From Rathayibacter sp. VKM Ac-2754 (GTDB taxonomy: Bacteria; Actinomycetota; Actinomycetes; Actinomycetales; Microbacteriaceae), in the NCBI RefSeq assembly GCF_009807095.1, contig NZ_WUCC01000005.1:124001-188000 (forward strand): a stretch of 64,000 nt of DNA, in the 5' to 3' direction. Shown piece by piece: positions 42,133 through 64,000 of the stretch. Position numbers and translations under genes: made by a program. Numbering within the stretch: position 1 is the stretch's first letter; every line of letters starts with the position of its first letter. The notes beneath the pieces are model-generated. The model was not told the DNA's origin. It searched no databases and saw only the letters and a program-made list of their open reading frames with translations.

Positions 42133-42251
42133 ATGCCCCCGATTGAGGAATCCCAGGTCAGCGGGTCGTTCCCGCGCGGGATGGCTCGGTGTTCGCCGCA
42201 TCGGGACCGACCAGCGCTCGGCATCGGAGCGTCGGTGGCTCCGATGCTCCG

Positions 42252-42303
42252 ACGACGAAGGCCGCCGCGGCGCCCTCGGGGGTGCTGCGGCGGCCTCCGT
42301 CGT
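42252..42303 (-). terminator. Terminator-like hairpin after the oxygenase operon
   Basis: ACGACG (42252) with CGTCGT (42298) and GCCGCCGC (42261) with GCGGCGGC (42287) pair in a long interrupted stem that ends 2 bases before the stop codon side of the gene at 42306. It fits termination of the minus-strand oxygenase operon. Confidence 0.7.
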
Positions 42304-42305
42304 GC

Positions 42306-44962: not shown

Positions 44963-44970
44963 CGTCTTCC

Positions 44971-45918: not shown

Positions 45919-45946
45919 GTCCGGTCCTTCCGGTCTGTCGGGCGCA

Positions 45947-47254: not shown

Positions 47255-47303
47255 GCGGTGCTGCTTTCTCTGCGGGGGAGGGAGGAGGAGTCCGGCCGGC
47301 GCA

Positions 47304-48605: not shown

Positions 48606-48681
48606 GCACACCACCGGTGAAGTGAGGGATTCGGGACGATTCCGAACCTATCGACGGCGTATTTCGGCTTCGCCCTGCGGC

Positions 48682-48701
48682 GGTGACATCGTCATTACGC
48701 C
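48682..48701 (-). promoter_or_regulatory. GGCGTAA-type operator candidate before the oxygenase operon
   Basis: On the minus strand GGCGTAAT, seven bases, TCACC, located 77-96 bases upstream of the monooxygenase start. It shares eight plus five bases and the same spacing with the site at 42113-42132. Its inner CGATGT is also present in the site before the GntR-type gene. Confidence 0.45.
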
Positions 48702-48924
48702 GGAGGCGGCGCCCGGACCGCAGTCGATCGCGACGGGCTCGCACCGCTCTCCCGCGCGGGATCCAGCCCGGTCGGCGCCCCGCCGACAGCCCGGATCCGG
48801 GGCTGATCGCCGGTCGTGGACGGCGCGGCGGGCGCCCGGATGCGGGGGCGGAGGCGGCGGACAGCGCCGCGTCCCCCCGGCGAACGGGTGTCGGAGGCGG
48901 CCGGCACAGGACCGCGCCCTCAGT

Positions 48925-48946
48925 GGCGTAACAGCGATGTAATGCC
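48925..48946 (+). promoter_or_regulatory. Imperfect palindrome before the double GntR gene
   Basis: A 22-base site starting GGCGTAAC and ending GTAATGCC, with 16 of 22 positions symmetric. It shares GGCGTAA-N3-CGATGT with the site at 48682-48701. It lies 106-127 bases before the regulator start, so it is a candidate autoregulatory operator. Confidence 0.45.
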
Positions 48947-49051
48947 GAGGCGCACGTGTGTGTAATGCGCGGAGAGGATCCTTGTCGCCCAAGGATCCCA
49001 GCGTCGCGAATCCCTTCGACTCGACCGCGCAGTCATTCGTCTGGAGATCAC

Positions 49052-50767
49052 ATGGACCACTCGGCTCATCACGGCGGCACTGTCCGAGATCACTCGGCGC
49101 AGAACGGTTCGGCACAGAACGGTTCGGCGCAGAACGACTCGGCGCAGAGCGATTCTGCGCAGAACGATTCGGCGCAGGGGAGCTCCGCGCAGAAGGACTC
49201 CGCGCAGCGGGAGTTCCGCCGGCTGGCGCGTGAACGCGCCTCCGAGCAGAAGGTCGTGCGGATGCGCTCGGTGCTGAGCGTGCACGGCGCCCTGCGCACC
49301 GGACTCCGGACGGGCACCATCGCGCCGTCCGACCGGCTCGAGGAGTCGGTGCTCGTGCGCAAGTACTCGGTCAGCCGGAACGCGGTGCGCGCTGCCCTCC
49401 GCCTCCTCGTCGACGAGGGCGTCGTCTCGCGAGCCCCGCGCGCCGGGACGGTCATCCTCTGCGGCCTTGCCGACGTCCGCATCGACAACGGGGTCGCCTG
49501 GGCGAGAGCAGAGGACGCCGACCACGAACTGGTGACGACCGAGAGCCGCTGGATCCCCTCCACGCCGATCACACGGACCATGCTCGACACCGACGACGCT
49601 CAGGTGCACTGCACCGAGATGGTCGATCTTCTCGACGGCGAGCCGAGCCTCCTGTACGCCAGGTTCTGCCTCGCGGCGGGCGCCGGTCGCGCCTCGGTCT
49701 CGGGTGGTCGCGACGGCAGCTTCGAGGCCCTGTTCGCCGAGACCTACGGCAGCCGGATCGGCTCGATCGACTGCTGGGTCGAGGCGAAGGGCGCCGACGA
49801 GCGTGCGGCGGCACAGCTCGGGGTGGCTCCGGGCACGGCGCTGCTCGTGAAGTCCCGGCAGATCCGGGGAGAGGACGGCGTGCCGCGCGAGTACAGCGTG
49901 ACCCACTACCTCGCCTCCCGGGTGGCACTGACGACGGTCCTCGACGGGGCGTCGACGCACGCGCCGACCGCCGTCCCACGGGTCCGCTTCGAGCACGGCG
50001 GGCCTGCGGTGTCGGCGTCCGTCGAGGAGCCGGGGGCGAGCGTGCACCGCCGCTCCGTTCTGGATGCGCACTCCGAGCTGCGCGCCGCCCTCCGCGGCAA
50101 GCTCTTCCGCGTCGACGAGCAGCTCGTCGAGGACGATCTCGCACGAGAGTTCGGCACGTCGCGCAACACCATGCGCACCGCGCTCGCGCAGCTCGTCGAC
50201 GAGGGCCTCATCCGCCGCGACCGCCGACACGGCACGGTGGTCACGACGCCCATCGCCGAGCTGACCATCGACAACGCGATGGGATGGTACCCGGAGGACG
50301 CCGGACGCCACCGCACCGAGAGCCTCTTCGCCGTGACGATCCCGACTCCGCCGACCGTCGGGGAACGACTGGGCACGGGCAGTCCCACCGTGTCGGTCGA
50401 TCACTTCCTCTCGCACCGCGATGGACGGCCCTTCGTCATCTACATCCGCTACTCCGAGCCGGCCGAGCACCCTCGCCCGCTCACGGATCCGACCCGGATG
50501 GACTTCGACGATCTCTTCCGCCACAGCTACGGGGTATCGCTCGACCGCATCGAGACGAGCGTCCACGCCGTCCGCGCCGGTGAACGCGCCGCCGGACTGC
50601 TCGGTGTGGCACCGGGGACGCTCCTCCTCCTCAAGGAGCGCCTGCTCGTGGGCGAGGACGGCCGCGCTCGCGAGTTCAGCCACAGCTACTACGTCGCCGC
50701 CGGCGTCGTGCTCTCGACGCGGCGGTCGGCGAGTCCGGAGGCGCGCGCGATCCGAGCGGCCGCCTGA
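49052..50767 (+). CDS. Double GntR-UTRA transcriptional regulator with SAQ repeats
   Basis: A 571-residue fusion of two complete HutC/GntR-type regulators. HTH1 is at about 66-130 (VLVRKYSVSRNAVRAALRLL) with an effector UTRA-like domain at about 150-300 (RAAAQLGVAPGTALLVKSRQ). HTH2 is at about 335-400 (DLAREFGTSRNTMRTALAQL) with a second UTRA-like domain at about 420-565 (RAAGLLGVAPGTLLLLKERL). The N-terminus carries eight SAQ-type pentapeptide repeats (residues 15-54). GGAG lies 7 bases upstream of the ATG. Single GntR proteins act as dimers; one chain here already holds two DNA-binding units. It is divergent from the oxygenase operon and is its probable regulator. Confidence 0.88.
   Translation: MDHSAHHGGTVRDHSAQNGSAQNGSAQNDSAQSDSAQNDSAQGSSAQKDSAQREFRRLARERASEQKVVRMRSVLSVHGALRTGLRTGTIAPSDRLEESVLVRKYSVSRNAVRAALRLLVDEGVVSRAPRAGTVILCGLADVRIDNGVAWARAEDADHELVTTESRWIPSTPITRTMLDTDDAQVHCTEMVDLLDGEPSLLYARFCLAAGAGRASVSGGRDGSFEALFAETYGSRIGSIDCWVEAKGADERAAAQLGVAPGTALLVKSRQIRGEDGVPREYSVTHYLASRVALTTVLDGASTHAPTAVPRVRFEHGGPAVSASVEEPGASVHRRSVLDAHSELRAALRGKLFRVDEQLVEDDLAREFGTSRNTMRTALAQLVDEGLIRRDRRHGTVVTTPIAELTIDNAMGWYPEDAGRHRTESLFAVTIPTPPTVGERLGTGSPTVSVDHFLSHRDGRPFVIYIRYSEPAEHPRPLTDPTRMDFDDLFRHSYGVSLDRIETSVHAVRAGERAAGLLGVAPGTLLLLKERLLVGEDGRAREFSHSYYVAAGVVLSTRRSASPEARAIRAAA
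49094..49213 (+). repeat. 15-bp tandem repeat (eight units) in the regulator N-terminus
   Basis: Seven 15-bp units plus a partial eighth, consensus TCGGCGCAGAACGRT, encode Ser-Ala-Gln-(Asn/Ser/Gly/Lys)-(Gly/Asp/Ser). The repeat stays in frame, so copy number can change without breaking the gene, as in a VNTR. Confidence 0.85.
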
Positions 50768-50786
50768 GCCGGTCGCGCAGGCCCGC

Positions 50787-51467
50787 TCAGCTCCGAGGGG
50801 CGGGGTCCGGCGCGAACGACTCCGCAACGGCGAGCAGCTGCTCGACGCTGGGGTAGGCCCAGCGGAGATAGGCCGCCGGGATGCGGCTCCGCTCGGCGAC
50901 GAGCTCGTGGGTCACCTCGGCCGGGTCGACCTCGACGACTGTTCTGGCGATCGCCGCGAGCCGGTGCGCCTCCCGATCCCGACGGATCTGCTCGAGATCC
51001 GCGGTCCGCTTGGGGCCGGGGCGGACGGCGGCGCGTCGACGCGATGACTCCGCCGCCTGCTCGCGCGCCCAGGTCCGGGTCGCCGCGATGTCCCGCCCGA
51101 GCTGCTGGACGAGCGCCTCGGTGTCCCGGTAGCGGCGTTGCGGCCGGAGCTTGGCGCACAGCTCGACCGTGATCTCGTGGCCGTAGAGCGAGCCGGAGAA
51201 GTCGAGGAGGTGCGCCTCGAGCAGCCGCTGCCCGTCGCGCCCGTAGAAGCTCGTGCGGCGCCCGACCGAGACCGCGGCGGTGTGCACGGAGTCCTCGGCG
51301 CTGTCGCGGACGATGCCCGCGTAGACGCCGTCGGCCAGACCGCAGTCGGCGAGCGGGATGTTCGCGGTCGGGAAGCCGAGGAGGCGGCCGCGGCGATCGC
51401 CGGGGACGACCACCCCGGTCACGGTGAACAGGGCGTCGGAGGCGTCGAGACGAGTGGTGACGGTCAT
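50787..51467 (-). CDS. Stand-alone riboflavin kinase with extra C-terminal helical region
   Basis: A 226-residue protein whose first 130 residues form a flavokinase domain (RibF C-terminal half) that makes FMN from riboflavin and ATP. GFPTANIPL (about 31-39) is the conserved GxPTAN motif, EAHLLDFSGSLYGHEITVEL (about 85-104) holds the catalytic Glu, and LRPQRRYRDTEALVQQLGRD completes it. The FAD synthetase domain is absent. Residues about 145-226 are helical and end like a TetR-type helix-turn-helix (VAERSRIPAAYLRWAYPSVE). AGAGG precedes the ATG at 51467. It sits beside FMN-dependent oxygenases and could supply their cofactor. Confidence 0.82.
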   Translation of the reverse strand: MTVTTRLDASDALFTVTGVVVPGDRRGRLLGFPTANIPLADCGLADGVYAGIVRDSAEDSVHTAAVSVGRRTSFYGRDGQRLLEAHLLDFSGSLYGHEITVELCAKLRPQRRYRDTEALVQQLGRDIAATRTWAREQAAESSRRRAAVRPGPKRTADLEQIRRDREAHRLAAIARTVVEVDPAEVTHELVAERSRIPAAYLRWAYPSVEQLLAVAESFAPDPAPRS

Positions 51468-51640
51468 GGCGGCGATCCTCTCGGGTACACCCGTCGATCG
51501 GGCGCCCTCCCAGTAGAGCGCGCCCCCGTTACACCCCGATGACCCGGCCCTTTCGATCGCATTGCGCCGGTTCCCTCCCCTGCGGCGCGTGATCGTGACG
51601 GTCATCAAGGCGTCCGTGATGGGGTCGAGCGCTGACCACG

Positions 51641-51895
51641 GTCAGGCCGTGGGGCGTCTTCTCCCACTTGTGCGGGCTGAAGACGATCTGCCAGGCCGCA
51701 CGCCAGGCCGAGATCGAGTGCAGCACCCAGTAGACGGGGTTCAGCACCGCGAAGGCCGCGACCCGCCAGTTGTAGCGCTTCCACGCCGCGATCCCCGACA
51801 CCACGATCATCAGCGCGTTCGAGAACAGCATGTTCGTCGTCCCCGCGACGATCAGCCACTCCGGAATGTCGAGCCCCAGGAACTGCACGCCGATG
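51641..51895 (-). pseudogene. Duplicated 3' fragment of the GT2 synthase gene
   Basis: This 255-bp segment is nearly identical (about 5 differences, no gaps) to 53352-53606, inside the glycosyltransferase gene at 53312. It encodes the last membrane region from QFLGLDIPEWL to KTPHGLT and lacks the catalytic part and the original stop. It reads on into unrelated codons. Together with the intact copy it forms a direct repeat around the ATPase cassette. Confidence 0.85.
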
Positions 51896-51920
51896 CAGCA
51901 CCTGTTTCAGTCTTTACCAC

Positions 51921-51943
51921 GCTTTATCCGATCTGGATAAAGC
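51921..51943. promoter_or_regulatory. Palindrome upstream of the ATPase gene
   Basis: GCTTTATCC and GGATAAAGC are perfect 9-base arms around GATCT. Outside them CTTTAC (51912-51917) and GTAAAG (51956-51961) give a second inverted pair. The region is AT-rich compared with its surroundings and ends 26 bases before the ATPase start, so it is a probable operator or promoter. Confidence 0.6.
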
Positions 51944-51969
51944 ACCCTAACTCCAGTAAAGTCCGACAC

Positions 51970-53196
51970 GTGGACGCCATCGACAACCCCTACACGCCGA
52001 ACGCAGGTGCGCGGCCAGAGATCCTCATCGGCCGTGACGAGCAGACGGAGGCGTTCCGAACGCTGCTCGGTCGACTCCGCCGCGGGCGGACGGAGCAGTC
52101 GATGATCATGACCGGGCTGCGGGGAGTCGGAAAGACCGTCCTGCTGAACAGCTTCCGCTCCATCGCACTCGAAGAACACTGGGAGGTCATCGAGTTCGAG
52201 GCGGTCAAGCACGGCGAGGGTCGCTTCCGCCACACCATCGCGTCCCAGCTCAAGGCCGCGTTGCTCCGCCTGTCACCGCGTGCGAAGTGGACCGCAGCAG
52301 GACGACGAGCCGCCGAGGTGCTCAGCTCGTTCGCTGTCTCCGTCAACTCCGAGGGAACCTGGTCACTCGGCTGGGATGTCCCCGCCGCAGAGGGCCTTGC
52401 CGATCACGGCGATCTGGGCATGGACCTCGCGGATGTCCTGGTGGCGGTCGGAGAAGCAGCCGCCGAGCAGGGCGAGGGCATCGTCCTGCTCATCGACGAG
52501 GTCCAGTTCCTCGATTCGACGCAGCTCGAGGCGCTCATCCAGGCGATCCACAAGACCGTTCAGCGGAGCCTCCCGGTCACGTTCGTCGGCGCGGGTCTCC
52601 CTCAGATCGCAGAACTCGTCGGAGACGCGAAGTCGTACGCCGAGCGGCTCTTCAAGTTCCCCCGTATCGACTCGCTCGACGACGAGGATGCCAGAGCCGC
52701 CCTCACCGAGCCGGCCGCCACGGAGGGCGCGGTGTACGCGGATGACGCCGTCGACCTCGCCGTCGAGATCACGCGCGGCTACCCGTACTTCATCCAGGAG
52801 CTCGGTTACCAGGTATGGACGATCGCGAAGAGCGGCCGGATCTGGAGAGAGGATGTCGAGTTGGCGAGGGACGCCTACGAGGCGAAGCTGGACAGCTCGT
52901 TCTTCCGCGTCCGCCTCGACCGCGCCACGCCCCTGCAGACCGCCTACATGCGGGCGATGGCTGAGCTGGGGCCGGCGCCGCAGAAAGCCGGCGATGTCGC
53001 CCTGCTGATGAGCCGGACCTCGACGCAACTCGGACCGACTCGCGCGGAACTCATCGAGATGGGCCTCCTCTACACCCCTGAGCACGGCTACGCGGCCTTC
53101 ACTGTGCCCGACTTCGACCGCTTCATGAAGCGAGCCGTCCCCACGCTCGAGGTGCCCGCCGTCGGCGCGCGACGTCAGCGGCGCCCCTCCGTCTGA
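51970..53196 (+). CDS. AAA-type ATPase (AAA_16/STAND-like), cassette gene
   Basis: A 408-residue ATPase from the GTG at 51970. It has Walker A TGLRGVGKT (about 47-55), Walker B VLLIDEVQ (about 176-183), a sensor-like VTFVGAGLPQIAEL (about 201-214) and, at the C-terminus, a winged-helix-like region (about 310-395: GDVALLMSRTSTQLGPTRAE). This resembles archaeal-type Orc/ATPase-plus-wHTH proteins common in actinobacteria, whose role is unknown. It is the only gene in a 1.46-kb insert flanked by a 255-bp direct duplication, with its own operator-like palindrome before it and hairpins after it. Confidence 0.85.
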   Translation: MDAIDNPYTPNAGARPEILIGRDEQTEAFRTLLGRLRRGRTEQSMIMTGLRGVGKTVLLNSFRSIALEEHWEVIEFEAVKHGEGRFRHTIASQLKAALLRLSPRAKWTAAGRRAAEVLSSFAVSVNSEGTWSLGWDVPAAEGLADHGDLGMDLADVLVAVGEAAAEQGEGIVLLIDEVQFLDSTQLEALIQAIHKTVQRSLPVTFVGAGLPQIAELVGDAKSYAERLFKFPRIDSLDDEDARAALTEPAATEGAVYADDAVDLAVEITRGYPYFIQELGYQVWTIAKSGRIWREDVELARDAYEAKLDSSFFRVRLDRATPLQTAYMRAMAELGPAPQKAGDVALLMSRTSTQLGPTRAELIEMGLLYTPEHGYAAFTVPDFDRFMKRAVPTLEVPAVGARRQRRPSV

Positions 53197-53208
53197 GCAC
53201 GCCGCCTC

Positions 53209-53272
53209 GATCCATCCGTCGAAGACGGCCCGTTCGAGCACGAGAGCACGGTGCTTTCGTGACGGATCGATC
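53209..53272 (+). terminator. Nested inverted repeats after the ATPase gene
   Basis: GATCCATCCGTC (53209-53220) and GACGGATCGATC (53261-53272) pair with one mismatch. Inside, CACGAGAGCAC (53239-53249) and GTGCTTTCGTG (53251-53261) form an 11-bp arm pair with one mismatch. The structure lies 12 bases past the ATPase stop and may terminate transcription or mark the end of the cassette. Confidence 0.55.
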
Positions 53273-53311
53273 CCACCGACAGGGTGACGAGGCGCCGCGC
53301 GAGAAGCCGCC

Positions 53312-55246
53312 CTACGCCGGCGCCCCGATCGTCGAGTCCTCGTAGTCCTCCGTCAGCCCGTGGGGCGTCTTCTCCCACTTGTGCGGGCTGAAGACGATCT
53401 GCCAGGCCGCACGCCAGGCCGAGATCGAGTGCAGCACCCAGTAGACGGGGTTCAGCACCGCGAAGGCCGCGACCCGCCAGTTGTAGCGCTTCCACGCCGC
53501 GATCCCCGACACCACGATCATCAGAGCGTTCGAGAACAGCATGTTCGTCGTGCCCGCGACGATCAGCCACTCCGGGATGTCGAGACCGAGGAACTGCACG
53601 CCGATGTAGGTGATGATCGTGAAGCCCAGCACCAGCGGGTACAGGAGGAACGCCACCGGCGTCCCCATGATCAGCGCGACCAGGCTCAGCGTGCCGAGGA
53701 TCCCGTTGACGCGGAACCAGCGCACGGGGTGCCGCGTGTTCACGCCCGCGGTCATCATGTAGCCCTTGATCCAGCGGGTGCGCTGCTTGATCCACGCGGG
53801 GACCTCGGCGCACGCCTCCTCCCAGGTGTTCGAGTCGACGACGCCCACGCGGTAGCCGTGCGCGGCCACGCGGAGGCCGAGGTCGGCGTCCTCCGTGACG
53901 TTGTACGGGTCCCAGGCGCCGAGCTCGCGCAGCACGCGCGTCTCGAAGTGGTTGGAGGTGCCTCCGAGCGGGATCGGCAGGTGCGACTGGTCGAGGCCGG
54001 GCAGCATCGCGCCGAACCAGTGCGCGTACTCGACCGCGAACATCCGGGTCAGCACGTTGTAGTCGGCGTTGAAGTAGCTCAGCGCGCCCTGCAGGCACAC
54101 CAGCTGCTTCTGCGACGGGTCCACGTGCCGGCGCTCGAACTCGTCCTCGCGGAACAGCCGCACGCACTTGCGCAGCTGGTCGGGGTCGGGCCGGTCCTCG
54201 GCGTCGTAGATCACGACGAACTCGCCGCGGGCGAAGCTGAGGCCGTAGTTGCACGCGCGCGGCTTGGTCTGCGGGCCGCCCGGCGGCACGATCACCATGC
54301 GCACGTACTCGGGCGGGTTCATCCGCCGCACCGCGCCGATCGTCTCGTCGTCGTCGGCCTCGAGCAGCACGAGCACCTCGAGCTTGGCCTTGGGGTAGTC
54401 GAGCGCGCCGAGGTTCACCAGCAGCTTGCTGATGATGTTGGCCTCCTTGTAGGCCGGGACGAGGATCGTGTAGATCGGCAGCTCGTCGTCGGTCATGCGC
54501 GGAGGCGACACCGCGAGACCGCGGCGGCCGCGCTCGAGCGCCACCTCCTCCTCCCATGCCGTGACCGAGCTCTTGTTGAGCGGCGCGCGGAGCCCTGCCA
54601 GGGCCTTGAAGGCGATGTTCATCAGGAACAGCAGATTCGCGGCGGCGAGCACGATCACGAAGGTGATGCTCGGCGCGAGCACGACCCCCACGATCACCAC
54701 GGCGGCCAGCACGAGCGGGGTGACGACCTGCCAGCGCCGCAGCCCCGACTTGGCCGACTCGTCGCCGCTCTCGACGGCGAGCGCGTCGGCGGCACCGAAC
54801 AGCAGCGCGGCGCGGCAGGCGTTCTCGACCGCCATGAAGATGTCCCAGTCGGTGGTCGTGCGCACCGTGATCCGGGAGACGCCCATCAGCTCGCGCGCGC
54901 GCGCCAGCACCGTCTCGGTCGGCGGCACCGAGGTGGCGATCACGCCGGTGCCGTCCTCGAGCACCCGCCAGGGCACCCAGCCCTCGTCGACGAGGGTGAT
55001 CGGGCCGATGCGCGCGAGGGTCTTCGCCTCGGGGGGCTCCTCGACCAGGTCGACCATCGGGGCGTCCCACTGCTCGGCGAGCGCCGCGTACATCTCGCGC
55101 CGGGTGACGGCTCCGTCGATGATGAGGTGCCGGCCGAGCAGGCCGCCCTCGCGGGCCTGGCGGCGCAGCGCCTCGTCGAGCTGCTCCCGGCTGATGAGCC
55201 CGCGGTCGAGGAGGATCTCGCCCACGCGTGCCGTCGTCGTCGCCAT
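53312..55246 (-). CDS. Processive GT2 glycan synthase with N-terminal MshEN-like domain
   Basis: A 644-residue membrane synthase. Residues about 6-155 resemble an MshEN (GspE N-terminal) domain, with the tandem c-di-GMP-binding motifs starting VGEILLDRGLISREQL and LGRHLIIDGAVTRREM, each ending in a helix with terminal Gln. Two membrane helices (about 178-215) precede the GT2 catalytic domain: ILVPAYKEANI (about 263), DAEDRPDPD (about 345), TEDADLG (about 450) and QRTRW (about 485), the D, DxD, ED and QxxRW signature of processive beta-glycan synthases. Further C-terminal helices follow. The partner genes are just upstream. Its 3' end is duplicated at 51641-51895. Confidence 0.9.
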   Translation of the reverse strand: MATTTARVGEILLDRGLISREQLDEALRRQAREGGLLGRHLIIDGAVTRREMYAALAEQWDAPMVDLVEEPPEAKTLARIGPITLVDEGWVPWRVLEDGTGVIATSVPPTETVLARARELMGVSRITVRTTTDWDIFMAVENACRAALLFGAADALAVESGDESAKSGLRRWQVVTPLVLAAVVIVGVVLAPSITFVIVLAAANLLFLMNIAFKALAGLRAPLNKSSVTAWEEEVALERGRRGLAVSPPRMTDDELPIYTILVPAYKEANIISKLLVNLGALDYPKAKLEVLVLLEADDDETIGAVRRMNPPEYVRMVIVPPGGPQTKPRACNYGLSFARGEFVVIYDAEDRPDPDQLRKCVRLFREDEFERRHVDPSQKQLVCLQGALSYFNADYNVLTRMFAVEYAHWFGAMLPGLDQSHLPIPLGGTSNHFETRVLRELGAWDPYNVTEDADLGLRVAAHGYRVGVVDSNTWEEACAEVPAWIKQRTRWIKGYMMTAGVNTRHPVRWFRVNGILGTLSLVALIMGTPVAFLLYPLVLGFTIITYIGVQFLGLDIPEWLIVAGTTNMLFSNALMIVVSGIAAWKRYNWRVAAFAVLNPVYWVLHSISAWRAAWQIVFSPHKWEKTPHGLTEDYEDSTIGAPA

Positions 55247-55248
55247 GC

Positions 55249-56925
55249 TCAGCCTCCGAGCCGCTCGTAGATCACGTAGATGCCCTGCGAGAACACGGGC
55301 CGGTAGCGGGTGTCGAACGAGGAGTCGCGCGTGATCGCGTCGTAGACGAGGTCTGCGACGCCGGTCTCGGAGAGCTCGGGGGCGTCGGCGGTGGTCACGA
55401 ACACCCACTTCGCGTGCGTGTAGGGCGCGGCGAGGGCCTCGTCGAAGAGCTCGCCGGCCGAGCGGTTGTAGTACTCCGAGAGCGGGATGCCGATCTCGGG
55501 CAGCAGCGCGTTGCCGGCGGCGCTCTCGTCGATCAGGACTCCTCCGCCGTCGTAGTTCTCACCGAGGAAGCGAGCGGCGGCGGTCGCGCCCGACGCCTCC
55601 TTGAGGCCGACGTAGCCGCTCGCCTCGGCGATCACCGCGTTGCGGTCGAGGTCCTGCGCCCACCACGCGGTCTGCGCGCCGAGCAGCACGAGCACGAGAC
55701 CCAGGGCACCGGCGCCCACCCGCGGGAGGCGCCGCAGCGCGTCGACGAGCACCGCCGCGAGCACCGCGAGGAACGGCAGCACCGACAGCGCGTAGCGGTT
55801 GTTCCACCAGTTCGTCGGCAGTGTCTGGTCGTTGTTCATGTGGGTCTGGCCGAGGTAGAGGCTGAGGAGCGAGAAGGCGTACGAGACGATCATCAGCCAG
55901 ATCACGAGGGCGTCGTCCGAGATCCCGCGGCGCCACGCGAGCACCAGCGCTCCGGCGATCCCGAGCGCGACCGTGACGAGCCCCGAGGTCTCGAGCACCG
56001 CCCAGTTGTACGACCACAGCGTCAGGCCGGCGTTGCCCTGGTAGGCGAGCAGCCCCGCGTCGGCGACCGCCTTCTGCAGGTTCGCGGCCGAGTACTGCCC
56101 GTTCATGAACTCGAGCGGGTTGCTGTAGACCGTGAAGTTGTAGACCAGCCACCAGACGATCGAGATCAGCGGCAGCACGCCGAACGCGCTCGCCATCTTG
56201 ATCGCGTACCGGAGCGACCTCTTGCGGCGCCACGCGACGATCAGCACCACGAGCGTGCCGCCGAACACGAGCACCCAGCCCTCGTAGCGCGAGAGCGTCG
56301 CGGCAGCGGCGGGCAGGCCGCAGAACACCATCATCTCGCCGGCCATCAGCGTGCGGCGGCTGGTCACCCAGTGCGAGAGCCCCGCGAAGCAGCCGACCAT
56401 CGTGACGATGAGCACCGGCTCCGTCATCGCGGTCGAGAACGCGTAGAGCACCCCGGGGTTGGCGAGCACCAGCAGCACGGCGGTGATGCGCCCCGCGCGG
56501 AGGTGACCCACGCGCGCCGAGATCCGGTACACGCCGCAGGCGGTGCCGGCCAGGCAGATCATGCCGAGCAGGCCCGCCGCCCAGCCGGTGTGCCACAGCC
56601 AGAGCGACTGCACGAACGGGATGAGGATGAGGCTCGGGACGGGCAGCCAGACCGTGCCGAGCTGCGTGAACCCGGGCGCCTTCGAGTCGAAGATGCGCCG
56701 CGAGATCGCGAGGTGGCTCTGCGTGTCGGCGTAGGCGAGGTTGATGCCGGAGGAGGTGGTCACGAGGCAGGCGGCGAAGCCCACCAGGAGCGACACCACC
56801 AGCACGACGACCGTGCCGGGCACCTGCCGGCCGGTGACGGGCTGCCCGAGGCGGTCCCAGGCGCGCAGCCACCACCGGCGGGCCGCGGGCGGCGCGACCG
56901 GAGCAGGGGCGATCGTGCTGGTCAC
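55249..56925 (-). CDS. Membrane glycosyltransferase (GT39/PMT-like fold)
   Basis: A 558-residue protein with about ten or more membrane helices and a soluble C-terminal part of roughly 130 residues. The first loop carries the Asp-containing LAYADTQSHLAISRRIFDSK (about 63-82), typical of GT-C polyprenyl-sugar transferases, and MTEPVL and SRYEGWV are later landmarks. It is in tight operon arrangement (2 bp before the GT2 synthase, 7 bp after the BcsB-like gene). It may decorate the polysaccharide or transfer lipid-linked sugars; the substrate is unknown. The start is GTG at 56925. Confidence 0.82.
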   Translation of the reverse strand: MTSTIAPAPVAPPAARRWWLRAWDRLGQPVTGRQVPGTVVVLVVSLLVGFAACLVTTSSGINLAYADTQSHLAISRRIFDSKAPGFTQLGTVWLPVPSLILIPFVQSLWLWHTGWAAGLLGMICLAGTACGVYRISARVGHLRAGRITAVLLVLANPGVLYAFSTAMTEPVLIVTMVGCFAGLSHWVTSRRTLMAGEMMVFCGLPAAAATLSRYEGWVLVFGGTLVVLIVAWRRKRSLRYAIKMASAFGVLPLISIVWWLVYNFTVYSNPLEFMNGQYSAANLQKAVADAGLLAYQGNAGLTLWSYNWAVLETSGLVTVALGIAGALVLAWRRGISDDALVIWLMIVSYAFSLLSLYLGQTHMNNDQTLPTNWWNNRYALSVLPFLAVLAAVLVDALRRLPRVGAGALGLVLVLLGAQTAWWAQDLDRNAVIAEASGYVGLKEASGATAAARFLGENYDGGGVLIDESAAGNALLPEIGIPLSEYYNRSAGELFDEALAAPYTHAKWVFVTTADAPELSETGVADLVYDAITRDSSFDTRYRPVFSQGIYVIYERLGG

Positions 56926-56932
56926 GGCATGC

Positions 56933-59002
56933 TCAGTCGGAGGAGGCGGGGCGCGCCGGCGGAGTAGCCGAGGGGTCGGCCGCGTGCTGGCCGTGCGGTG
57001 CGGAGTCCGGCTCCTGGGTGGCGCGCTCCTGCGCGTCGACGTAGGCCGCGACCCGGCGTGCCCGGCGACGGCGGGCGAGCCAGCCGAGCAGGATGAGCAG
57101 CCCGATGACGACGACCGCGACGACGAACCAGATCGCGTACGACGAGTAGTCGTCCTTGACCTCGTCCTGCGGCGTGATCTCGTTGCTGTCGATCTGCACG
57201 GGCTCGGTCGCCACTGCCCCCGTCACGGCGAGGTTGCCCGAGAGCGAGGTCCAGCCCTCCTCGGCGGCGAACGCGCCGATCGAGGCCTGCAGCGCGGAGG
57301 AGGCGGTCGCGTCGCCGTCGGGGCTCCAGCCGCCGAGCAGCACGAGATCGCGGCCCTCGGTCGTGAAGGCCTCGAGGGCCGCGTAGGGCGCGTCGGTGCC
57401 CACTCCGTAGCTCAGGCTCGAGGAGTCGATGGCGGTGAACTCGGCCAGGCGCAGCGGGGTCCGCAGCGCCTCCGCCTCCTCGGCGCCGGCCGCGACGACG
57501 AGGCCCGAGCGGTCGGAGTCGACGAAGTCGTCGAGGCCGACGACCGAGACGGCGAGCGGCGTGGAGTCGACCCGCTGCAGGGCGGCCACGAGGTCGCCCG
57601 CGCTGCGGAGCGCGTCGGCGCCGGTGGCCGACTCGCCGAAGGCCACGGCGAGCTCGCCGCCGAAGGCCTGCGGGAAGCGGCCGAAGCCGGGCGCGGCCGA
57701 CTCGCCGCGGACCCCGGTGACGGTGGAGGAGGCTCCGTCGACGAAGAACTCGATCGGCACGGAGTCGGCCGAGCCGATGCAGAGCCCGTCGCTGTCGCGG
57801 ACGGCCGAGAGGCGGACCGAGAGGCCGTTCGAGGATCCGAGCTGGCCGGTCGGGACCGACAGCTCCATGTCGACGGCGGTGTCGGCGCCGAGGACGCTCG
57901 AGCCGATCAGGAAGTCGTTCCAGTAGACGTTCGCCGTCGCCGTGATGCCCTCGGGGATCGCGGAGTGCGTGCCGACCAGCTCGAGGTCGACCGCGGAGAC
58001 GGGGCCGCCGAACGCGGACTGCGTGATGGTCGTGTAGCTCGCCGCCGCTCCGGTGCTGCCCAGCGCGAGGCGGTCGGCGCCGAAGTCGGCAAGGGTGTGC
58101 TCGAGCGAGCTCGACGGCACGACCTTCTGCGCGAGGCCGGTCGTGCTGGCGCTCGAGGCGAGCCCGCGGTACTCGCTGCCGAGCGCGGCTCCGGCGGCGG
58201 CGAGGTCGCCCGAGGCGCCGGTGAGCGTCAGGACCGGCGTTCCGCCTTCGTCGCTGATCGACGTGACGACGTCGCCGTCCGCCGCTTCGAAGCGCACGAT
58301 GCGGCCCTGAGCGGCGTCGAGATCGACGATCCCCTCGGTCGCGCCGTCCTCCGCCACGGTGATCGCGACACCGGAGGAGGGGTAGCGCGCGGCCAGGGAG
58401 GCGGCGGCCGACAGCCCCGCGGCGCGCAGGGCGTCGTCGGCGGCGTCGGGCACGACGATCGAGACGTCGGTGACCGAGTCGCCGAAGAAGTCGGCGACCG
58501 TGGTGGGCGCCGCGGCGACGCCGTCGCCGACGATCCCGACGTCGGAGACGGTGAGCGAGCGGCCCTGCACCTCGCAGAGAGCGCCGGCCGAGCCGGTCGC
58601 CCCGGTGAGCTGGAAGCCGATCGCGAGGACGCCGTCGACCGCGTCGCCCGGCTGGAGCGGGACGTCGAGCCGGGTCGCGGTCGCCGCGTCGATCGTCTGC
58701 ACGGTGCGACCCGACACGATGACCGCGAGCGAGCCGCTCAGCGGCTCGAGCGCCTGGAGCGTGGCGAGCACGCGGGTGGGGGTGACGCCGTCGGCGACCG
58801 GGAGGGTCAGGTACTCGAGCCCGGCACCGGCGGTGACGGTGAGGGTCGAGGGGCTGGCGGCGGCCTGCACGACGGCTCCGGTCGCCGGGTCGACGAAGTC
58901 GGCCGCGGAGGCGCTCGACGCGGCGCCGAACACGAGGACGGCGCAGAGCGCGGGGGCGGCGACGGCCGCGAGAGCACGCCGGTGCAGGGAAGGAGAGGTC
59001 AT
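56933..59002 (-). CDS. BcsB-like exported accessory protein of the glycan synthase
   Basis: A 689-residue protein with a signal peptide (residues 1-34, ending SASA), a large beta-rich extracellular region, and one membrane helix near 620-645 (YAIWFVVAVVVIGLLILLGW) followed by a basic stop-transfer and a short Pro-rich tail. The repeated jelly-roll-plus-flavodoxin-like pattern (YLTLPVADGVTPTRVLATL, then DVSIVVPDAADDALRAAGLS) and position next to a processive synthase match BcsB-type subunits. The identification rests on architecture and context rather than strong motifs. Confidence 0.72.
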   Translation of the reverse strand: MTSPSLHRRALAAVAAPALCAVLVFGAASSASAADFVDPATGAVVQAAASPSTLTVTAGAGLEYLTLPVADGVTPTRVLATLQALEPLSGSLAVIVSGRTVQTIDAATATRLDVPLQPGDAVDGVLAIGFQLTGATGSAGALCEVQGRSLTVSDVGIVGDGVAAAPTTVADFFGDSVTDVSIVVPDAADDALRAAGLSAAASLAARYPSSGVAITVAEDGATEGIVDLDAAQGRIVRFEAADGDVVTSISDEGGTPVLTLTGASGDLAAAGAALGSEYRGLASSASTTGLAQKVVPSSSLEHTLADFGADRLALGSTGAAASYTTITQSAFGGPVSAVDLELVGTHSAIPEGITATANVYWNDFLIGSSVLGADTAVDMELSVPTGQLGSSNGLSVRLSAVRDSDGLCIGSADSVPIEFFVDGASSTVTGVRGESAAPGFGRFPQAFGGELAVAFGESATGADALRSAGDLVAALQRVDSTPLAVSVVGLDDFVDSDRSGLVVAAGAEEAEALRTPLRLAEFTAIDSSSLSYGVGTDAPYAALEAFTTEGRDLVLLGGWSPDGDATASSALQASIGAFAAEEGWTSLSGNLAVTGAVATEPVQIDSNEITPQDEVKDDYSSYAIWFVVAVVVIGLLILLGWLARRRRARRVAAYVDAQERATQEPDSAPHGQHAADPSATPPARPASSD

Positions 59003-59124
59003 GGAGCGACGATCCGATCGGCATACGGGAGAACGGGACGGCCGTCACTCGAGGATGGAGTCGAACGGTCGTGCCCGGGCCTCGGCGCGAGCCGTGGAAT
59101 CGGCTCCGACGCCCCGTTCTGGCG

Positions 59125-61458
59125 TCAGTCTAGGGAGTGCAGGGCGACCGAGCCGGTCGTCAGCAATCGGTGCTCCGCCCCCGTCCGAGTGTCAGGACGA
59201 CCGAAGACGTACCCCTGCACATCGGTGACTCCGAGCCCGCGGAGGAGGGCGATCGTCTCGAGGTCCTCGGCCCCCTCGACGATGACGCGCACCCCCGTGG
59301 CCACCGCGTACGACTGCAGTGCCCGGACGAGCTCGCGCTTGCGGACCTCGGTCGCGAGCCCGGTGATCAGGGCCCGGTCGAGCTTCACGATGTCGAGCGG
59401 GAAGGTCGCCACCGACGCCGCGGAGGAGCCCAGCGCGCCGTAGTCGTCGAGCGCGATCAGCACTCCTCGGTCGCGCAGGCTCTGAGCGTGCCGTCGCAGG
59501 TCGTCGGTCGCCGTGTCGAGGGTGCGCTCGTTGAGCTCGATGCAGAGCTGCACCCCGGGGAAGCGCCCGGGCATCTCCGCCAGGTGATCGCCGAGCCGCT
59601 CGGGCGCCAGCTGCTCGAGGTCGACGTTGACCGTCATGCACTCGATGCCGACCCCGGTGTCGCGGAAGCTCTCGGCCGCGGCCATCGCCTTCTCGACGAC
59701 TTGCACGGTGAGGTCGTCGAGGAGGTCGAGCTCGCGGACCTTCTCGATGAGGTCGGGCGGGGCGATCCGGCCGACGACCGGATCCTCGAGCCGCACCAGC
59801 GCCTCGAACGCCCAGATGCGGTTGCTCGCGAGCTCGACGATCGGCTGGTAGGCGACGTCGAGGGTGCGGTCGCGGACGGCTCGCGACGCCGCCTCCCGCA
59901 CCGGATCGGCGACGACCGAGGTGACGTCGATGGCGCTCGCGCGCTCGCGGCCGGAGCGGCCCCTCCCCCGCTTGAGCGCGAGCATGCTGCGATCGGCCTC
60001 GATCACGATCGTCGACGGATCGAGCTCCTCGTGCGCCGAGAACGCGACTCCGACGCTGACCACCGGCGCCAGCGTGTCACCGCCGACCGTCGCGGTCGCG
60101 CTGACCGTCTCGACCAGCGCCTCCGCGCGCCGGCGCGCATCCGCTGCCGAGCGAAGACCCCGCAGGATCAGCACGAACTCGTCCCCGCCGATGCGGGCCG
60201 CGAAGCCGCCCTCGGCGGTGGACTCGGCCAGCCGCTGACCCACCAGGCGGAGCATCTTGTCGCCGACGTGGTGCCCGCGTCCGTCGTTCAGGTCCTTGAA
60301 GTCGTCGAGGTCCATGAAGAGCACGGCGATGCCCTCGAACGGCCGGCGGTCGCGGTTGTAGGTCGCGAGGGCCGACTGGAACGCCCGCTGGTTCGGCAGA
60401 CCCGTGAGCGGGTCGCGGTCGACGTAGCGGCGCAGCGACTCCACGTCGTCGCGGGCGCCGAGCGTGTCGGTGCCCATGTGCGCGAGGGCGTCGAGGATCT
60501 GCTCGTCCTCGGTGCTGAACGGCACCGGGCTGAGGCGCTTCGAGGCGACGACGTAGCGGGTGCGGCCGCCGGGCACCAGCATCACCGAGCCGATCTCGCT
60601 GCCCGAGGCCGGCTCGTCGCGCACCTCGATCCGGTCGGCCTCGATCGACGTCCGCGCGTGGGCGACGAGGGCGCCCTCGGCCTGCGAGACCCCGCCCCAC
60701 GGCAGCTCGAGCGCCGCGTCCAGGACGCCGGCGAGCCGCCTCCGCACCCGCCGCACCTCGATCCGCTTCGCCACGCTGAAGACCAGCGCGCTCACGACGA
60801 GCAGCAGGAGGGGGCTCTGCTCGATCGCCGGGTCGCCCGCCATCGCCGGGACCACCACGCTGTCGAGGAACCAGACGGCGGTGCCGAGCACCCAGAGCAG
60901 CGCGATCATCAGAGCGACCCGGCGCGGCACGAGCGCGCTCGTCCCGACCTCCCAGTCCAGGCCCCAGCGCCCGCGCTGGCGGAGGACGTCGACGAGCAGG
61001 ATGACCAGGACGAACACGACGGTCGCCGGCAGCAGCGCGAGCGGTTCGCCGATCGGGCCCCGGAGCAGGTCGAACACGTGCAGGTGGGCGTCCGCGGCGA
61101 GCGCCCCGAGACCCGTGACGTAGAACGCGATCGGGACGCTGCGGGTCTGCACCAGCTGGACGACGAGCGACGCCGCCGTCCACACTCCGAGCAGGCGCAG
61201 CGGATCCACGCCCGGCTGCACGACGACCAGCAGCGTCACCGTCAGCCCCACCACGGGCATCCCGGAGCGACGGCCGAGCGGGATCCGGAGCGCGGCGGTG
61301 AGCGCGACGGCCACGCCGAACGCGACGACGAACGCCCAGCTGAGCGGCGGCGTGATGATCAGCAGGCGGGCCGAGTTCGCGATCAGCGCGAGTGCGAACG
61401 CCCCGAGCAGCCCGGCGATCACGACGTCGAGGGGCCGGAGCCCGTGGGTGCGCTGCAT
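59125..61458 (-). CDS. Membrane GGDEF-EAL c-di-GMP turnover protein
   Basis: A 777-residue protein. Seven or more membrane helices fill residues 1-235, and a GAF-like sensor lies at about 240-340. The GGDEF domain (about 350-510) has intact RIGGDEF. The EAL domain (about 520-765) has FEALVRLED, the acidic CIELNERT, DD in ALDDYGALGSS, Lys in DIVKLDR and VEGAED. Both active sites look largely complete, so it could make or break c-di-GMP; the DDFGTG loop is altered to DDYGAL. It lies 122 bp upstream of the BcsB-like gene on the same strand and probably controls the MshEN-type synthase. Confidence 0.92.
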   Translation of the reverse strand: MQRTHGLRPLDVVIAGLLGAFALALIANSARLLIITPPLSWAFVVAFGVAVALTAALRIPLGRRSGMPVVGLTVTLLVVVQPGVDPLRLLGVWTAASLVVQLVQTRSVPIAFYVTGLGALAADAHLHVFDLLRGPIGEPLALLPATVVFVLVILLVDVLRQRGRWGLDWEVGTSALVPRRVALMIALLWVLGTAVWFLDSVVVPAMAGDPAIEQSPLLLLVVSALVFSVAKRIEVRRVRRRLAGVLDAALELPWGGVSQAEGALVAHARTSIEADRIEVRDEPASGSEIGSVMLVPGGRTRYVVASKRLSPVPFSTEDEQILDALAHMGTDTLGARDDVESLRRYVDRDPLTGLPNQRAFQSALATYNRDRRPFEGIAVLFMDLDDFKDLNDGRGHHVGDKMLRLVGQRLAESTAEGGFAARIGGDEFVLILRGLRSAADARRRAEALVETVSATATVGGDTLAPVVSVGVAFSAHEELDPSTIVIEADRSMLALKRGRGRSGRERASAIDVTSVVADPVREAASRAVRDRTLDVAYQPIVELASNRIWAFEALVRLEDPVVGRIAPPDLIEKVRELDLLDDLTVQVVEKAMAAAESFRDTGVGIECMTVNVDLEQLAPERLGDHLAEMPGRFPGVQLCIELNERTLDTATDDLRRHAQSLRDRGVLIALDDYGALGSSAASVATFPLDIVKLDRALITGLATEVRKRELVRALQSYAVATGVRVIVEGAEDLETIALLRGLGVTDVQGYVFGRPDTRTGAEHRLLTTGSVALHSLD

Positions 61459-61628
61459 GGGGGCATGCTAGGGCCTGCCGAACGCGATTCCACCTGCTCC
61501 GCACGGCCCGATCTGCGGCGTCTCGGGCTCGATCGACCTCGGGCGGCGGCCGATGCCGACATTCTGTGCAGCGCGAACGCCCCTGTCCTAGGGTCTGTAC
61601 AGGTCGGGTGCGGACGCATAGTGAGGCC

Positions 61629-62879
61629 ATGCCCCTTCTCTCCGTCGCCGCTGCCGAGCTCACTCGCCGCGGCCTCTTCGCCGCCCCCCTCGGCGCCACC
61701 CTCGCCACCGCCGATCCCGACGCCCCCGTCCTGCACTCCGAGATCGCCGCGCCCAGCGGGGTCGCGGGGCTCGACGCCTCCGGTCTCGTGCCCCTCGCGC
61801 AGCTCCCCGAGGCGGTGCGCACCGACTCCGGCGAGCGCCCCGTCGCCAAGGGCGAGCTCGTCTACAACGTGCAGGACTACGGTGCGACCGGCGACGGCAG
61901 CACCGACGACCTGCCCGCGATCGACGCGGCGATCGACGCCGCCCTCGCCACCTACGGCGGCGTCGTCTACTTCCCCCGCGGCATCTACCGCATCGCCGGA
62001 TCGATCGGCCGTGCCAGCGGGCTCTCGAGCATCGCGTTCCGGGGGGCGGGCGAGCTGTCGACGCGCATCCGCTCACTGACGAACGCGCCGGTGGTCACCG
62101 GGGCCTTCTCGGCCTGCCGCTTCGACAACCTGATCCTCGACGCGAACGGTCTGGGCGGCGCGTGCGTCTCGGCGCACCTCGACAAGACCGTGCTCGACTC
62201 GCTGCAGCTCTACGGCTGGACCGACTACGGCATGCGCCTGAACGACGGCACCTTCGGCGACCTCGGGCTGCTCAACCGCATCCAGCGCTGCAGCATCGAC
62301 CAGTGCACGGGCACCGGCATCTGGACGGGCTACCGGATGATCGACTCCTGGATCGTCGAGAACAACATCGGCGCCTCCTACGCCGACCTCTCGATCGAGG
62401 GCGGGCCGATCCGCATCCTGGGCAACCACCTCGACGGCTCGCCGCAGATCAACATCGAGCTGCGCGGCAACCGGCGCGTGACGATCGCGAACAACATCAT
62501 GGAGGGGGCGCGGCGCCAGTCCCTCGTCTACACGATGCCGCCGTGGCTGACGGAGGATCTGGCGCAGATCCAGATCGTCGGCAACGCGATCAGCAACGGA
62601 GGCAAGGCCGCCGCGAACACGTACCCCGCGATCGCGATCACCGGCGTCTCCTCGGCGGCGCGCACCGTGGGCTTCAGCATCACCGGCAACATCTTCGCGT
62701 GCGAGGACGCGGGCGCCGGCTGGACGCACTGCGTCGAGGCCGTGAACGCGCGCGCCGTCTCGGTGCTGGGCAACCAGTGGGCGACCGGGCACATGAACGC
62801 GAAGCCCGTGCGCGCGGTGGGCAGCACGGCGTACGAGGTGATCGGCAACCACGGCGACAACGCGGTACGGACCACCTGA
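61629..62879 (+). CDS. Pectate-lyase-3-like right-handed beta-helix protein
   Basis: A 416-residue beta-helix protein. The entry motif VQDYGATGDGSTDDLPAIDA (about 80-99) and GGVVYFPRGIYRIAGSI (about 110-126) are diagnostic of the Pectate_lyase_3/GH28-like fold. Repeated helix turns follow to the end (for example NRRVTIANNIMEGAR, VSVLGNQWATG). The N-terminus TRRGLFAAPLGATLATA is compatible with a Tat signal. It is divergent from the c-di-GMP and polysaccharide genes and could trim or bind the secreted polymer. The catalytic residues cannot be assigned by eye. Confidence 0.82.
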   Translation: MPLLSVAAAELTRRGLFAAPLGATLATADPDAPVLHSEIAAPSGVAGLDASGLVPLAQLPEAVRTDSGERPVAKGELVYNVQDYGATGDGSTDDLPAIDAAIDAALATYGGVVYFPRGIYRIAGSIGRASGLSSIAFRGAGELSTRIRSLTNAPVVTGAFSACRFDNLILDANGLGGACVSAHLDKTVLDSLQLYGWTDYGMRLNDGTFGDLGLLNRIQRCSIDQCTGTGIWTGYRMIDSWIVENNIGASYADLSIEGGPIRILGNHLDGSPQINIELRGNRRVTIANNIMEGARRQSLVYTMPPWLTEDLAQIQIVGNAISNGGKAAANTYPAIAITGVSSAARTVGFSITGNIFACEDAGAGWTHCVEAVNARAVSVLGNQWATGHMNAKPVRAVGSTAYEVIGNHGDNAVRTT

Positions 62880-62950
62880 GCGCGGCCACCTGAGCCGTCG
62901 CGGCCAGAATCGAGGGGTGCCCCTCCTCGTCTCCTCCGCCGGCCCGCGCC

Positions 62951-63913
62951 GTGGCTGACGCCCGCGGCGGCGTCGCCTCGCTCGAGCGCCACCAGATCGC
63001 CTGGTACCTCGGTGCGATCGCGGCGGGGCTGGCGCTCGGGCTCCTCCTGCCCGGGGCGGCGCGGCTCGACGTCGCGATCACCCCGGTGCTGGGGCTGCTG
63101 CTCTACGCCACGTTCCTCGCGGTGCCATTCGGCTCGGTGCTGCGCGCGTTCCGCGACGGGCGCTTCCTGAGCGCCGTGCTGCTGGTGAACTTCGTCGTGG
63201 TGCCGGTCGTCGCCCTCGCCCTGTCGCGGTTCGTCGCCGAGGAGCCGGCGCTGGTCTTCGGGGTTCTGCTGGTGCTCCTCACGCCGTGCGTCGACTACGT
63301 GATCGTCTTCAGCGGTCTCGCGGGCGGGGCGGCGGCGCGGCTGCTGGCGGCCGCGCCCCTCCTGATGCTGGTGCAGATCCTGCTGCTGCCCGTCCTCCTC
63401 CGCGTGATGCTGGGAGCGGAGGCGGTGTCCGCGGTCGAGATCGGCCCGTTCGCCGAGGCGTTCCTGCTGCTCATCGTCCTGCCGCTCATCGCGGCGGCGG
63501 CGACCCAGGCGCTCGCGGCGCGGACGGCGGTGGGGCGGCGGATCGAGGGCGCCGTGCAGGCGGCGATGGTGCCGCTGATGGTGGCGACGCTCCTCACCGT
63601 CGTGGCGTCGCAGGCGGGCGCGGTCGGAGCCGCGCTCCCCCGGCTCGGGGTGCTGGTGGCCGTCTACGCCGCCTTCGTCGTGGTGATGACGGCGATCGGA
63701 GTCGCAGCGGGGCGGATCGCGCGCCTCGACGTCCCGGCGCGGCGGGCGCTGCTGTTCAGCGGGGTCACCCGCAACTCGCTGGTGGTGCTGCCGCTCGCCC
63801 TCGCGCTGCCGCCCGCGCTGGCGCTCGCTCCGGTGGTCGTGGTGACGCAGACCCTCGTCGAGCTCGTCGCGATGGTGGCGCTGGTGCGCCTGGTGCCGCG
63901 CCTCGTGCGGTGA
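62951..63913 (+). CDS. BASS/ACR3-type transporter (arsenite or bile-acid-type symporter)
   Basis: A 320-residue membrane protein with about ten helices, GTG start. LLTPCVDYVIVFSGLAGGAA (about 110-129) with a Cys in the fourth-helix motif is characteristic of ArsB/ACR3 arsenite efflux relatives, and SGVTRNSLVVLPLALALP (about 273-290) is the second conserved region of the bile acid:sodium symporter superfamily. No arsR or arsC is adjacent, so the substrate is uncertain. It lies 71 bp after the beta-helix gene. Confidence 0.82.
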   Translation: MADARGGVASLERHQIAWYLGAIAAGLALGLLLPGAARLDVAITPVLGLLLYATFLAVPFGSVLRAFRDGRFLSAVLLVNFVVVPVVALALSRFVAEEPALVFGVLLVLLTPCVDYVIVFSGLAGGAAARLLAAAPLLMLVQILLLPVLLRVMLGAEAVSAVEIGPFAEAFLLLIVLPLIAAAATQALAARTAVGRRIEGAVQAAMVPLMVATLLTVVASQAGAVGAALPRLGVLVAVYAAFVVVMTAIGVAAGRIARLDVPARRALLFSGVTRNSLVVLPLALALPPALALAPVVVVTQTLVELVAMVALVRLVPRLVR

Positions 63914-63937
63914 CCCCCCGGCGGGCGGTCGCCCCGA

Positions 63938-64000
63938 TCAGCGCCGCGGCGCGGGGCGCGCGACCAGCACCAGCAGGCCGGCGACGGCGATCGAGGCGGC
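63938..64000 (-). CDS. C-terminus of a membrane protein (cut by the window edge)
   Basis: The minus strand reads AASIAVAGLLVLVARPAPRR and then a stop at 63938, the end of a hydrophobic helix with a basic tail. Only 20 residues are visible. It is convergent with the preceding transporter. The family cannot be named. Confidence 0.45.
   Translation of the reverse strand, partial: AASIAVAGLLVLVARPAPRR

Follow-up and report, generated by a model that had tools for sequence, protein, structure and literature searches.

The window analysed in this study, a stretch of 64,000 nucleotides from Rathayibacter sp. VKM Ac-2754 (contig NZ_WUCC01000005.1, positions 124,001 to 188,000 of the forward strand) with a G+C content of about 72%, carries on its minus strand a row of four genes at 53312-61458. 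In the order of transcription they encode a GGDEF-EAL protein of 777 aa (59125..61458), a membrane-anchored extracytoplasmic BcsB-like protein of 689 aa (56933..59002), a GT-C-like polytopic membrane protein of 558 aa with a GTG start, which is conserved in the operon and is putatively a glycosyltransferase (55249..56925), and a putative glycan synthase of 644 aa in which an N-terminal MshEN-type domain is joined to a GT2 catalytic domain (53312..55246, stop included). The last two genes are separated by a gap of 2 nt; the open frame of the synthase extends to 55408, and the start compatible with its family is the ATG at 55246. The initial annotation had placed a BcsB-like gene and a GGDEF-EAL gene in one row with the synthase, as we also find; the 558-aa gene between the BcsB-like and GT2 genes was absent from it. 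Among the best 80 of 587 relatives, the closest named one at the locus is Rathayibacter iranicus, with 91% protein identity. A search of 44000-64000 with Rfam returned nothing at the gathering threshold, hence no known c-di-GMP riboswitch lies there, and a promoter and terminator scan, which is uninformative for an actinobacterium, gave zero hits.

Several features flank the row. Divergent from the GGDEF-EAL gene lies a gene for a beta-helix, pectate-lyase-like protein (61392-62879; PF12708, 5.3e-14); the stretch is kept in two relatives, and the protein might cut or bind a glycan. On the other side, the 3' end of the synthase gene (53347-53609) has a 97% copy at 51636..51898, also on the minus strand, and a plus-strand gene for an AAA_16 ATPase lies between this 3' end and its duplicate (window 51562-53609). 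Homologous AAA genes occur elsewhere in three genomes of the genus at 83-85% identity, and three more are 38-40% identical; in the two relatives compared, no AAA gene follows the synthase within the stretch fetched. Beyond the duplicate are a gene with a riboflavin kinase domain (50787-51608; PF01687, 7.5e-31) and a C-terminal extension of no known kind, and a gene for a 603-aa protein with two GntR and two UTRA domains (48956-50767), that is, a single-chain double regulator, which has a short repeated stretch at its N terminus. The riboflavin kinase gene is close to a set of flavin-dependent monooxygenase-like genes, a run of similar frames of the luciferase-like FMN-dependent type (40706-48614), of which the single frame scanned, 47304-48614, matches PF00296 at 5.8e-45.

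The synthase and its partner proteins

The catalytic domain of the synthase covers residues 259-495 (53762..54472, minus strand; PF13641) and contains D298/D299, DAED (348-351), TED (451-453) and QRTRW (488-492), that is, the D, DxD, ED and QxxRW motifs of cellulose-type enzymes. When its AlphaFold model (mean pLDDT 87.1, pTM 0.87) was compared with the folds in the PDB, ranks 1-16 were all taken by BcsA (E. coli, Rhodobacter) or hyaluronan synthase, and chitin synthases and others, including PcManGT, TarS and RmlT, followed at lower ranks; the 50 listed matches are glycosyltransferases only, with no MshEN structure among them. The protein scores 37.5 bits against the CelA equivalog (cut-off 699.1) and 25.3 bits against that of NfrB (cut-off 1170). 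Orthology with NfrB is ruled out by the curated score and the domain order, as is orthology with BcsA by the curated scores and the order of domains.

The BcsB-like protein is left unmatched by Pfam BcsB, which recognises one of nine aligned members, the window's included (E 5.8e-5), and a sequence profile search gave no significant PDB match for it. Its AlphaFold model is of modest confidence (pLDDT 68.9, pTM 0.57), and in a Foldseek search of the PDB this model has BcsB chains at all of the ranks 1-22, with a best E of 6.2e-27. The likeness to BcsB, nearly invisible in sequence, is therefore clear by fold as far as the predicted model tells. For the GT-C-like protein, neither a Pfam match of its own nor a PDB match by profile was obtained; PMT_2 matches one of ten aligned members (E 7.6e-6), and the similarity to NCBIfam LA_3751-like (E 0.00096) is below the cut-off. 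The putative GT-C label of the middle gene, drawn from that one member in ten, is thus weaker than the BcsB label. The GGDEF-EAL protein is matched by PF00990 (3.4e-34) and PF00563 (1e-45) with the signature letters of both domains present; its best NCBIfam equivalog scores, all below cut-off, are those of phosphodiesterases. There are two GGDEF matches in the genome, one of them in the synthase row.

The putative N-terminal sensor domain

The N terminus of the synthase carries a tandem of MshEN motifs, motif I at residues 7-30 (RVGEILLDRGLISREQLDEALRRQ; 55157..55228, minus strand) and motif II at residues 36-59 (LLGRHLIIDGAVTRREMYAALAEQ; 55070..55141, minus strand), with a spacer of 5 residues. 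Both were located with the NCBIfam model NF053729 'c-di-GMP_motif', which matches residues 7-59 with 58.2 bits (E 5e-16, cut-off 38), and motif II was also aligned to PilF GSPII-B. The C-terminal subdomain of MshEN follows at residues 61-143 (54818..55066, minus strand; PF05157, 26.1 bits, E 8.7e-6, cut-off 23.1), and this sensor is the single PF05157 match of the genome, in which a second MshEN was not found. PF07238, the PilZ model, matches nothing in the synthase or in the whole genome, and 27 of the 29 genomes examined gave no match to it. The initial annotation had described the synthase as a cellulose-type enzyme with a tandem MshEN motif in place of PilZ, and each part of this description has been borne out by the motifs located, by the two cut-offs passed and by the zero PilZ matches.

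At the positions that contact the ligand in MshE, motif I of the window has R, V, G, G, L, L, Q and motif II has L, L, G, G, M, L, Q, so that 11 of the 14 positions scored are identical, two are conservatively changed (L10V and L54M), and Arg38 is replaced by Leu. The extended contact consensus, which admits R, K or L at positions 9 and 38 as reported in PMC11731258 and reads R/K/L9, G11, Q32, R/K/L38, G40, Q61, is satisfied by the window with R, G, Q, L, G, Q. The same report gives a Leu (L196) at the first position of motif II in Thermus PilF GSPII-B, which binds c-di-GMP with a KD of 6 nM (PMC11731258), and in our alignment motif II of that domain starts with LLGR, as does the window's. Since Leu38 is the residue of a 6 nM binder, the odd residue speaks for binding rather than against it, and the missing arginine of motif II is rejected as a mark of a dead site.

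Among solved structures, those nearest to the window domain are the Thermus PilF GSPII domains, with MshE next. The binding GSPII-B structures are matched at 3.9e-8 (8pdk) and 2e-8 (8pfa) and the non-binding GSPII-A (9g1w, with residues as PilF 1-154) at 3.4e-8, which is just as good; what tells the two apart is the contact residues, and by these the window belongs with the binders, having Gln, Leu, Gly and Gln at positions 32, 38, 40 and 61, where GSPII-A is described to have His, Ser, Ala and Arg (PMC12002112). However, restoring the consensus in GSPII-A alone was reported to give no binding back (PMC12002112), and on this precedent a good consensus is insufficient for c-di-GMP binding. A profile built from 10 orthologues matches c-di-GMP-binding structures (5htl at 3.2e-13, 8pdk at 1e-9) as well as BcsA structures (7lby at 4.2e-14, 4p00 at 2.5e-7). 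Judged from its sequence, the sensor probably binds c-di-GMP.

Distribution of the synthase and conservation of its contacts

A GT2 match at E <=1e-30 was obtained in 29 of 199 genomes of the family, the window's included, the 199 being a sample of a larger group. Ten of the fetched loci (L032-L041) have a GT2 of the window's type; BcsB-like and GT-C-like neighbours accompany it in nine (the exception, L037, is at the edge of its contig), and seven have GGDEF and/or EAL genes nearby. A second group of GT2 proteins, comprising clade B and its kin, is 32-47% identical and has none of these neighbours. The best 80 of 587 confirmed relatives come from Actinomycetota, Chloroflexota, Acidobacteriota, Gemmatimonadota, Bacteroidota, Pseudomonadota and others, and the fetched stretch contains a BcsB-like HMM match above 25 bits in 49 of 109 rows, those from Bacteroidota being weak (27-61 bits). 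From this spread it follows that a GT2 of the N-terminal MshEN type with a BcsB-like gene nearby is widespread; the window is the actinobacterial form of this arrangement, with the GT-C gene added.

Within the genus, nine of 15 genomes have the synthase, the same nine have a GGDEF match, and the other six have neither. The trio of BcsB-like, GT-C-like and GT2 genes is found in all nine, although in G282 two of the three are in broken frames, as is rpoB of that genome. A GGDEF-EAL gene stands within the row in seven of the nine, and the other two (G279 and G282) carry a GGDEF gene elsewhere. Fisher's test of the association gives p 0.0002 for any GGDEF match and p 0.007 for GGDEF matches outside the cluster (7/9 vs 0/6). 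On an rpoB tree of the genus with several weak branches, presence of the synthase switches at least six times; in all five independent supported pairs GGDEF and synthase occur together (sign test p 0.0625, the smallest value attainable with five pairs), and for GGDEF outside the cluster three pairs go the same way, none the opposite way and two show no difference. Since the cluster itself mostly includes one GGDEF gene, this co-switching is partly plain linkage. Each of the nine synthases found in the genus has Gly11, Gln32, Gly40 and Gln61 intact; one of them (L148) has Ala at Gly47.

Across the homologues the contacts were counted over 109 rows, from which L069 and L070, taken as repeats of L036 and L038, are left out; L061 and L062, as weak GT2 matches, are left out of the residue tables. 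Both of the guanine-binding glycines, Gly11 and Gly40, are intact in 52 of 109, and all 52 are in GGDEF-bearing genomes; none of the 37 homologues from GGDEF-less genomes has both, and 20 of the 72 from GGDEF-bearing genomes have lost one or both, or the whole stretch (Fisher p 1e-14, the rows being related). When relatedness is controlled, the 109 rows yield 7 independent supported pairs that differ in these residues; GGDEF changes in the same direction in an average of 1.2 of them (0-3) and never in the opposite one, a result short of significance. The fetched flanks contain GGDEF or EAL genes for 23 of the 52 homologues with both glycines and for 1 of the 57 without, neighbours being under-counted where contig ends limit the flanks; as several genomes are incomplete MAGs, absence of GGDEF may sometimes be missing sequence.

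The BcsB-like and GT-C-like genes are both present at 26 loci, and a letter at Gly11 is available in 21 (L069 repeats L036); L038, L070, L071, L072 and L078 have none and stand outside this table. In the 21 operon loci scored, Gly11 and Gly40 are each kept in 21, Gln61 in 18 and Gln32 in 15. Six orthologues of the Arthrobacter group with the same operon have both glycines and Ala at Gln32; five of them have adjacent GGDEF genes, and one, L065, scores 42.1 bits, above the curated motif cut-off. L038 has the same three genes in a genome rated 99% complete with zero GGDEF matches; there motif I is broken off at the frame end, and Phe, Ala and Ser stand at Gln32, Gly40 and Gln61. Among the GT2s of Microbacteriaceae, L047, L050, L051, L055 and L057 are without the MshEN N-terminal part and L054 has a degenerate remnant only, and no GGDEF match was found in the genomes of these six. 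The motif stretch is missing from L071, L074 and L100, in whose genomes GGDEF is present. In homologues from Bacteroidota the contact residues are gone, and a GGDEF match is nearly always absent, L125 having two weak ones.

For clade B, 16 rows from 15 loci (L042-L046, L048, L049, L052, L053, L056, L058-L060, L097 and L104) were scored, and members of the branch that lack the stretch were excluded. The clade retains the MshEN-type domain with its contacts replaced by a conserved ARxxKxRTGxHID pattern, having Asp at Gly40 in 16/16 and Lys at Gln32 in 13/16, also in GGDEF-bearing genomes; this pattern possibly reflects an altered ligand.

The initial annotation proposed control of the synthase by c-di-GMP and a search for MshEN-GT2 fusions with adjacent GGDEF genes, and stated that it would be contradicted if orthologues had lost the contact residues. 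The comparison, though it is one of sequences, supports such control by the intact contacts of the genus, the GGDEF matches in exactly the synthase-bearing genomes and the Leu shared with a 6 nM binder, and fusions with nearby GGDEF and/or EAL genes were found; for the contact residues the outcome is mixed, as they stand throughout the genus, are gone in clade B and Bacteroidota, and change at Gln32 in the Arthrobacter group.

Proposed mechanism and alternatives

In our reading, to which we give a probability of roughly three in four, the genes of the row make and export an extracellular polysaccharide under the control of c-di-GMP, which, bound to MshEN, switches on a synthase like BcsA/BcsB. 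This reading builds on the observed domains, GT2 and BcsB folds, conservation of operon and residues, and co-occurrence with GGDEF genes, and from these we infer c-di-GMP binding, activation rather than inhibition, a polymeric product and a role for the GT-C-like protein. The GT2 protein would polymerise a nucleotide-sugar at the cytoplasmic side and, like BcsA and hyaluronan synthase, would pass the chain across the membrane through its own helices. The N-terminal MshEN would bind one c-di-GMP, by which autoinhibition would be relieved, and its fold would do the job of the C-terminal PilZ of BcsA. The BcsB-like protein would sit outside the membrane at the exit of the channel, the GT-C-like protein would probably use a polyprenyl-linked sugar to decorate the chain as it emerges, and the neighbouring GGDEF-EAL protein would set c-di-GMP, either locally or globally. 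For activation through MshEN, E. coli NfrB offers a good analogy.

An alternative is that the GT2 transfers single sugar residues onto a lipid carrier or a lipoglycan used by the GT-C, with c-di-GMP tuning the decoration of an envelope glycan. The GT-C-like enzyme in the operon, the sub-threshold HMM resemblance of the GT2 to many GT2 types, and the presence of PcManGT, TarS and RmlT in the list of fold neighbours would all suit it; we consider it unlikely in view of QxxRW and TED, of a BcsB-fold partner and of the sixteen top fold ranks, all held by processive synthases. It is quite improbable, too, that the MshEN-like domain is structural, serves in docking or takes another ligand, with GGDEF genes as neighbours for other reasons, since the four contact residues are intact throughout the genus, where synthase and GGDEF genes switch together; in its favour, clade B retains the domain with other contacts, also in GGDEF-bearing genomes, and PilF GSPII-A, which has the fold without binding (PMC12002112), is equally similar to the window domain. 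Repression of the synthase by c-di-GMP, released by a GGDEF-EAL protein acting mainly as a phosphodiesterase, would fit the best equivalog scores of that protein and is very improbable, because c-di-GMP is reported to activate NfrB and BcsA (PMC8669469, PMC8669472) and the joint loss of GGDEF genes and synthase fits activation better.

A c-di-GMP-activated polysaccharide synthase at this locus would be of interest for several reasons. We know of few c-di-GMP outputs in Gram-positive actinobacteria outside Streptomyces, and here the messenger enzyme, the putative sensor and the output enzyme are all in one gene row. The genomes form a natural series of knock-outs, in which synthase and GGDEF are lost jointly and the sensor is decayed where GGDEF is absent, and they offer a sequence rule for live versus dead sensors, namely Gly11 and Gly40, with Gln32 and Gln61 less strict. 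The arrangement further suggests that BcsB-type partners can occur outside PilZ-gated cellulose synthases. More tentatively, and with considerable doubt, MshEN-GT2 with a BcsB-fold partner might constitute a second, trans-phylum class of c-di-GMP-gated synthases beside the PilZ-gated BcsA/BcsB; the genus might keep c-di-GMP mainly or only for it, hence the joint gain and loss, the sensor might decay or drop out without c-di-GMP, and one branch of Microbacteriaceae might have re-specialised to another ligand, marked by ARxxKxRTGxHID.

Comparison with known systems

A full-text literature search found no paper on this actinobacterial operon and none pairing Rathayibacter with c-di-GMP. The sensor of the window has the same tandem motif as Thermus PilF GSPII-B and MshE, and shares with PilF GSPII-B the Leu at the first position of motif II; in PilF and MshE, however, MshEN is fused to a pilus ATPase and not to a glycosyltransferase. 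With BcsA-BcsB the window shares a membrane GT2, a partner of BcsB fold and, putatively, control by c-di-GMP, but PilZ stands at the C terminus of BcsA, whereas the window has MshEN at the N terminus.

The concept of an MshEN-glycosyltransferase is itself already known. Such fusions were stated to be possible in 2016 (PMC5013675), and in 2021 NfrB of E. coli was reported as a c-di-GMP-activated GT2 of the NGR glycan, with a KD of 1.0 uM for c-di-GMP in its MshEN-bearing part (PMC8669469, PMC8669472). According to the same reports, c-di-GMP is required, the cognate cyclase DgcJ acts locally, and infection by phage N4, a read-out of the NfrB glycan, requires both the active site and the c-di-GMP site, being abolished or reduced by G491L and G519S; by spacing, G491 and G519 correspond to Gly11 and Gly40. 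They also mention a BcsB homologue adjoining nfrB in A. xylosoxidans and an NfrB homologue in the Gram-positive Eggerthella lenta (PMC8669469, PMC8669472). Like NfrB, the window synthase joins a GT2 with DxD, TED and QxxRW to an MshEN domain; unlike it, it has this domain at the N terminus, while NfrB is described with a C-terminal MshEN and an outer-membrane partner, NfrA.

Closer in domain order, by its published description, is Sfz2 of stalk-forming Zetaproteobacteria, in which an N-terminal T2SS EpsE-like domain (IPR007831) precedes a GT2 and which clusters with Sfz1, a protein with two BcsB-like domains (PMC8250860); genes related to Sfz were likened there to xagBCD of Xanthomonas. By its architecture of N-terminal MshEN, GT2 and a BcsB-like gene the window synthase is a candidate for the Sfz2/XagB type, and L111 from Xanthomonas cucurbitae is a homologue of the window GT2. 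The Sfz system differs in being Gram-negative; its N-terminal domain was treated as EpsE-like, with RxxD and RxxxR sites sought and not the MshEN motif, and the account of its cluster describes no GT-C or GGDEF-EAL gene (PMC8250860). With NfrB and with Sfz2 beside Sfz1 already published, what the window adds is an operon from a Gram-positive bacterium in which GT-C and GGDEF-EAL genes are also present, together with the comparative evidence.
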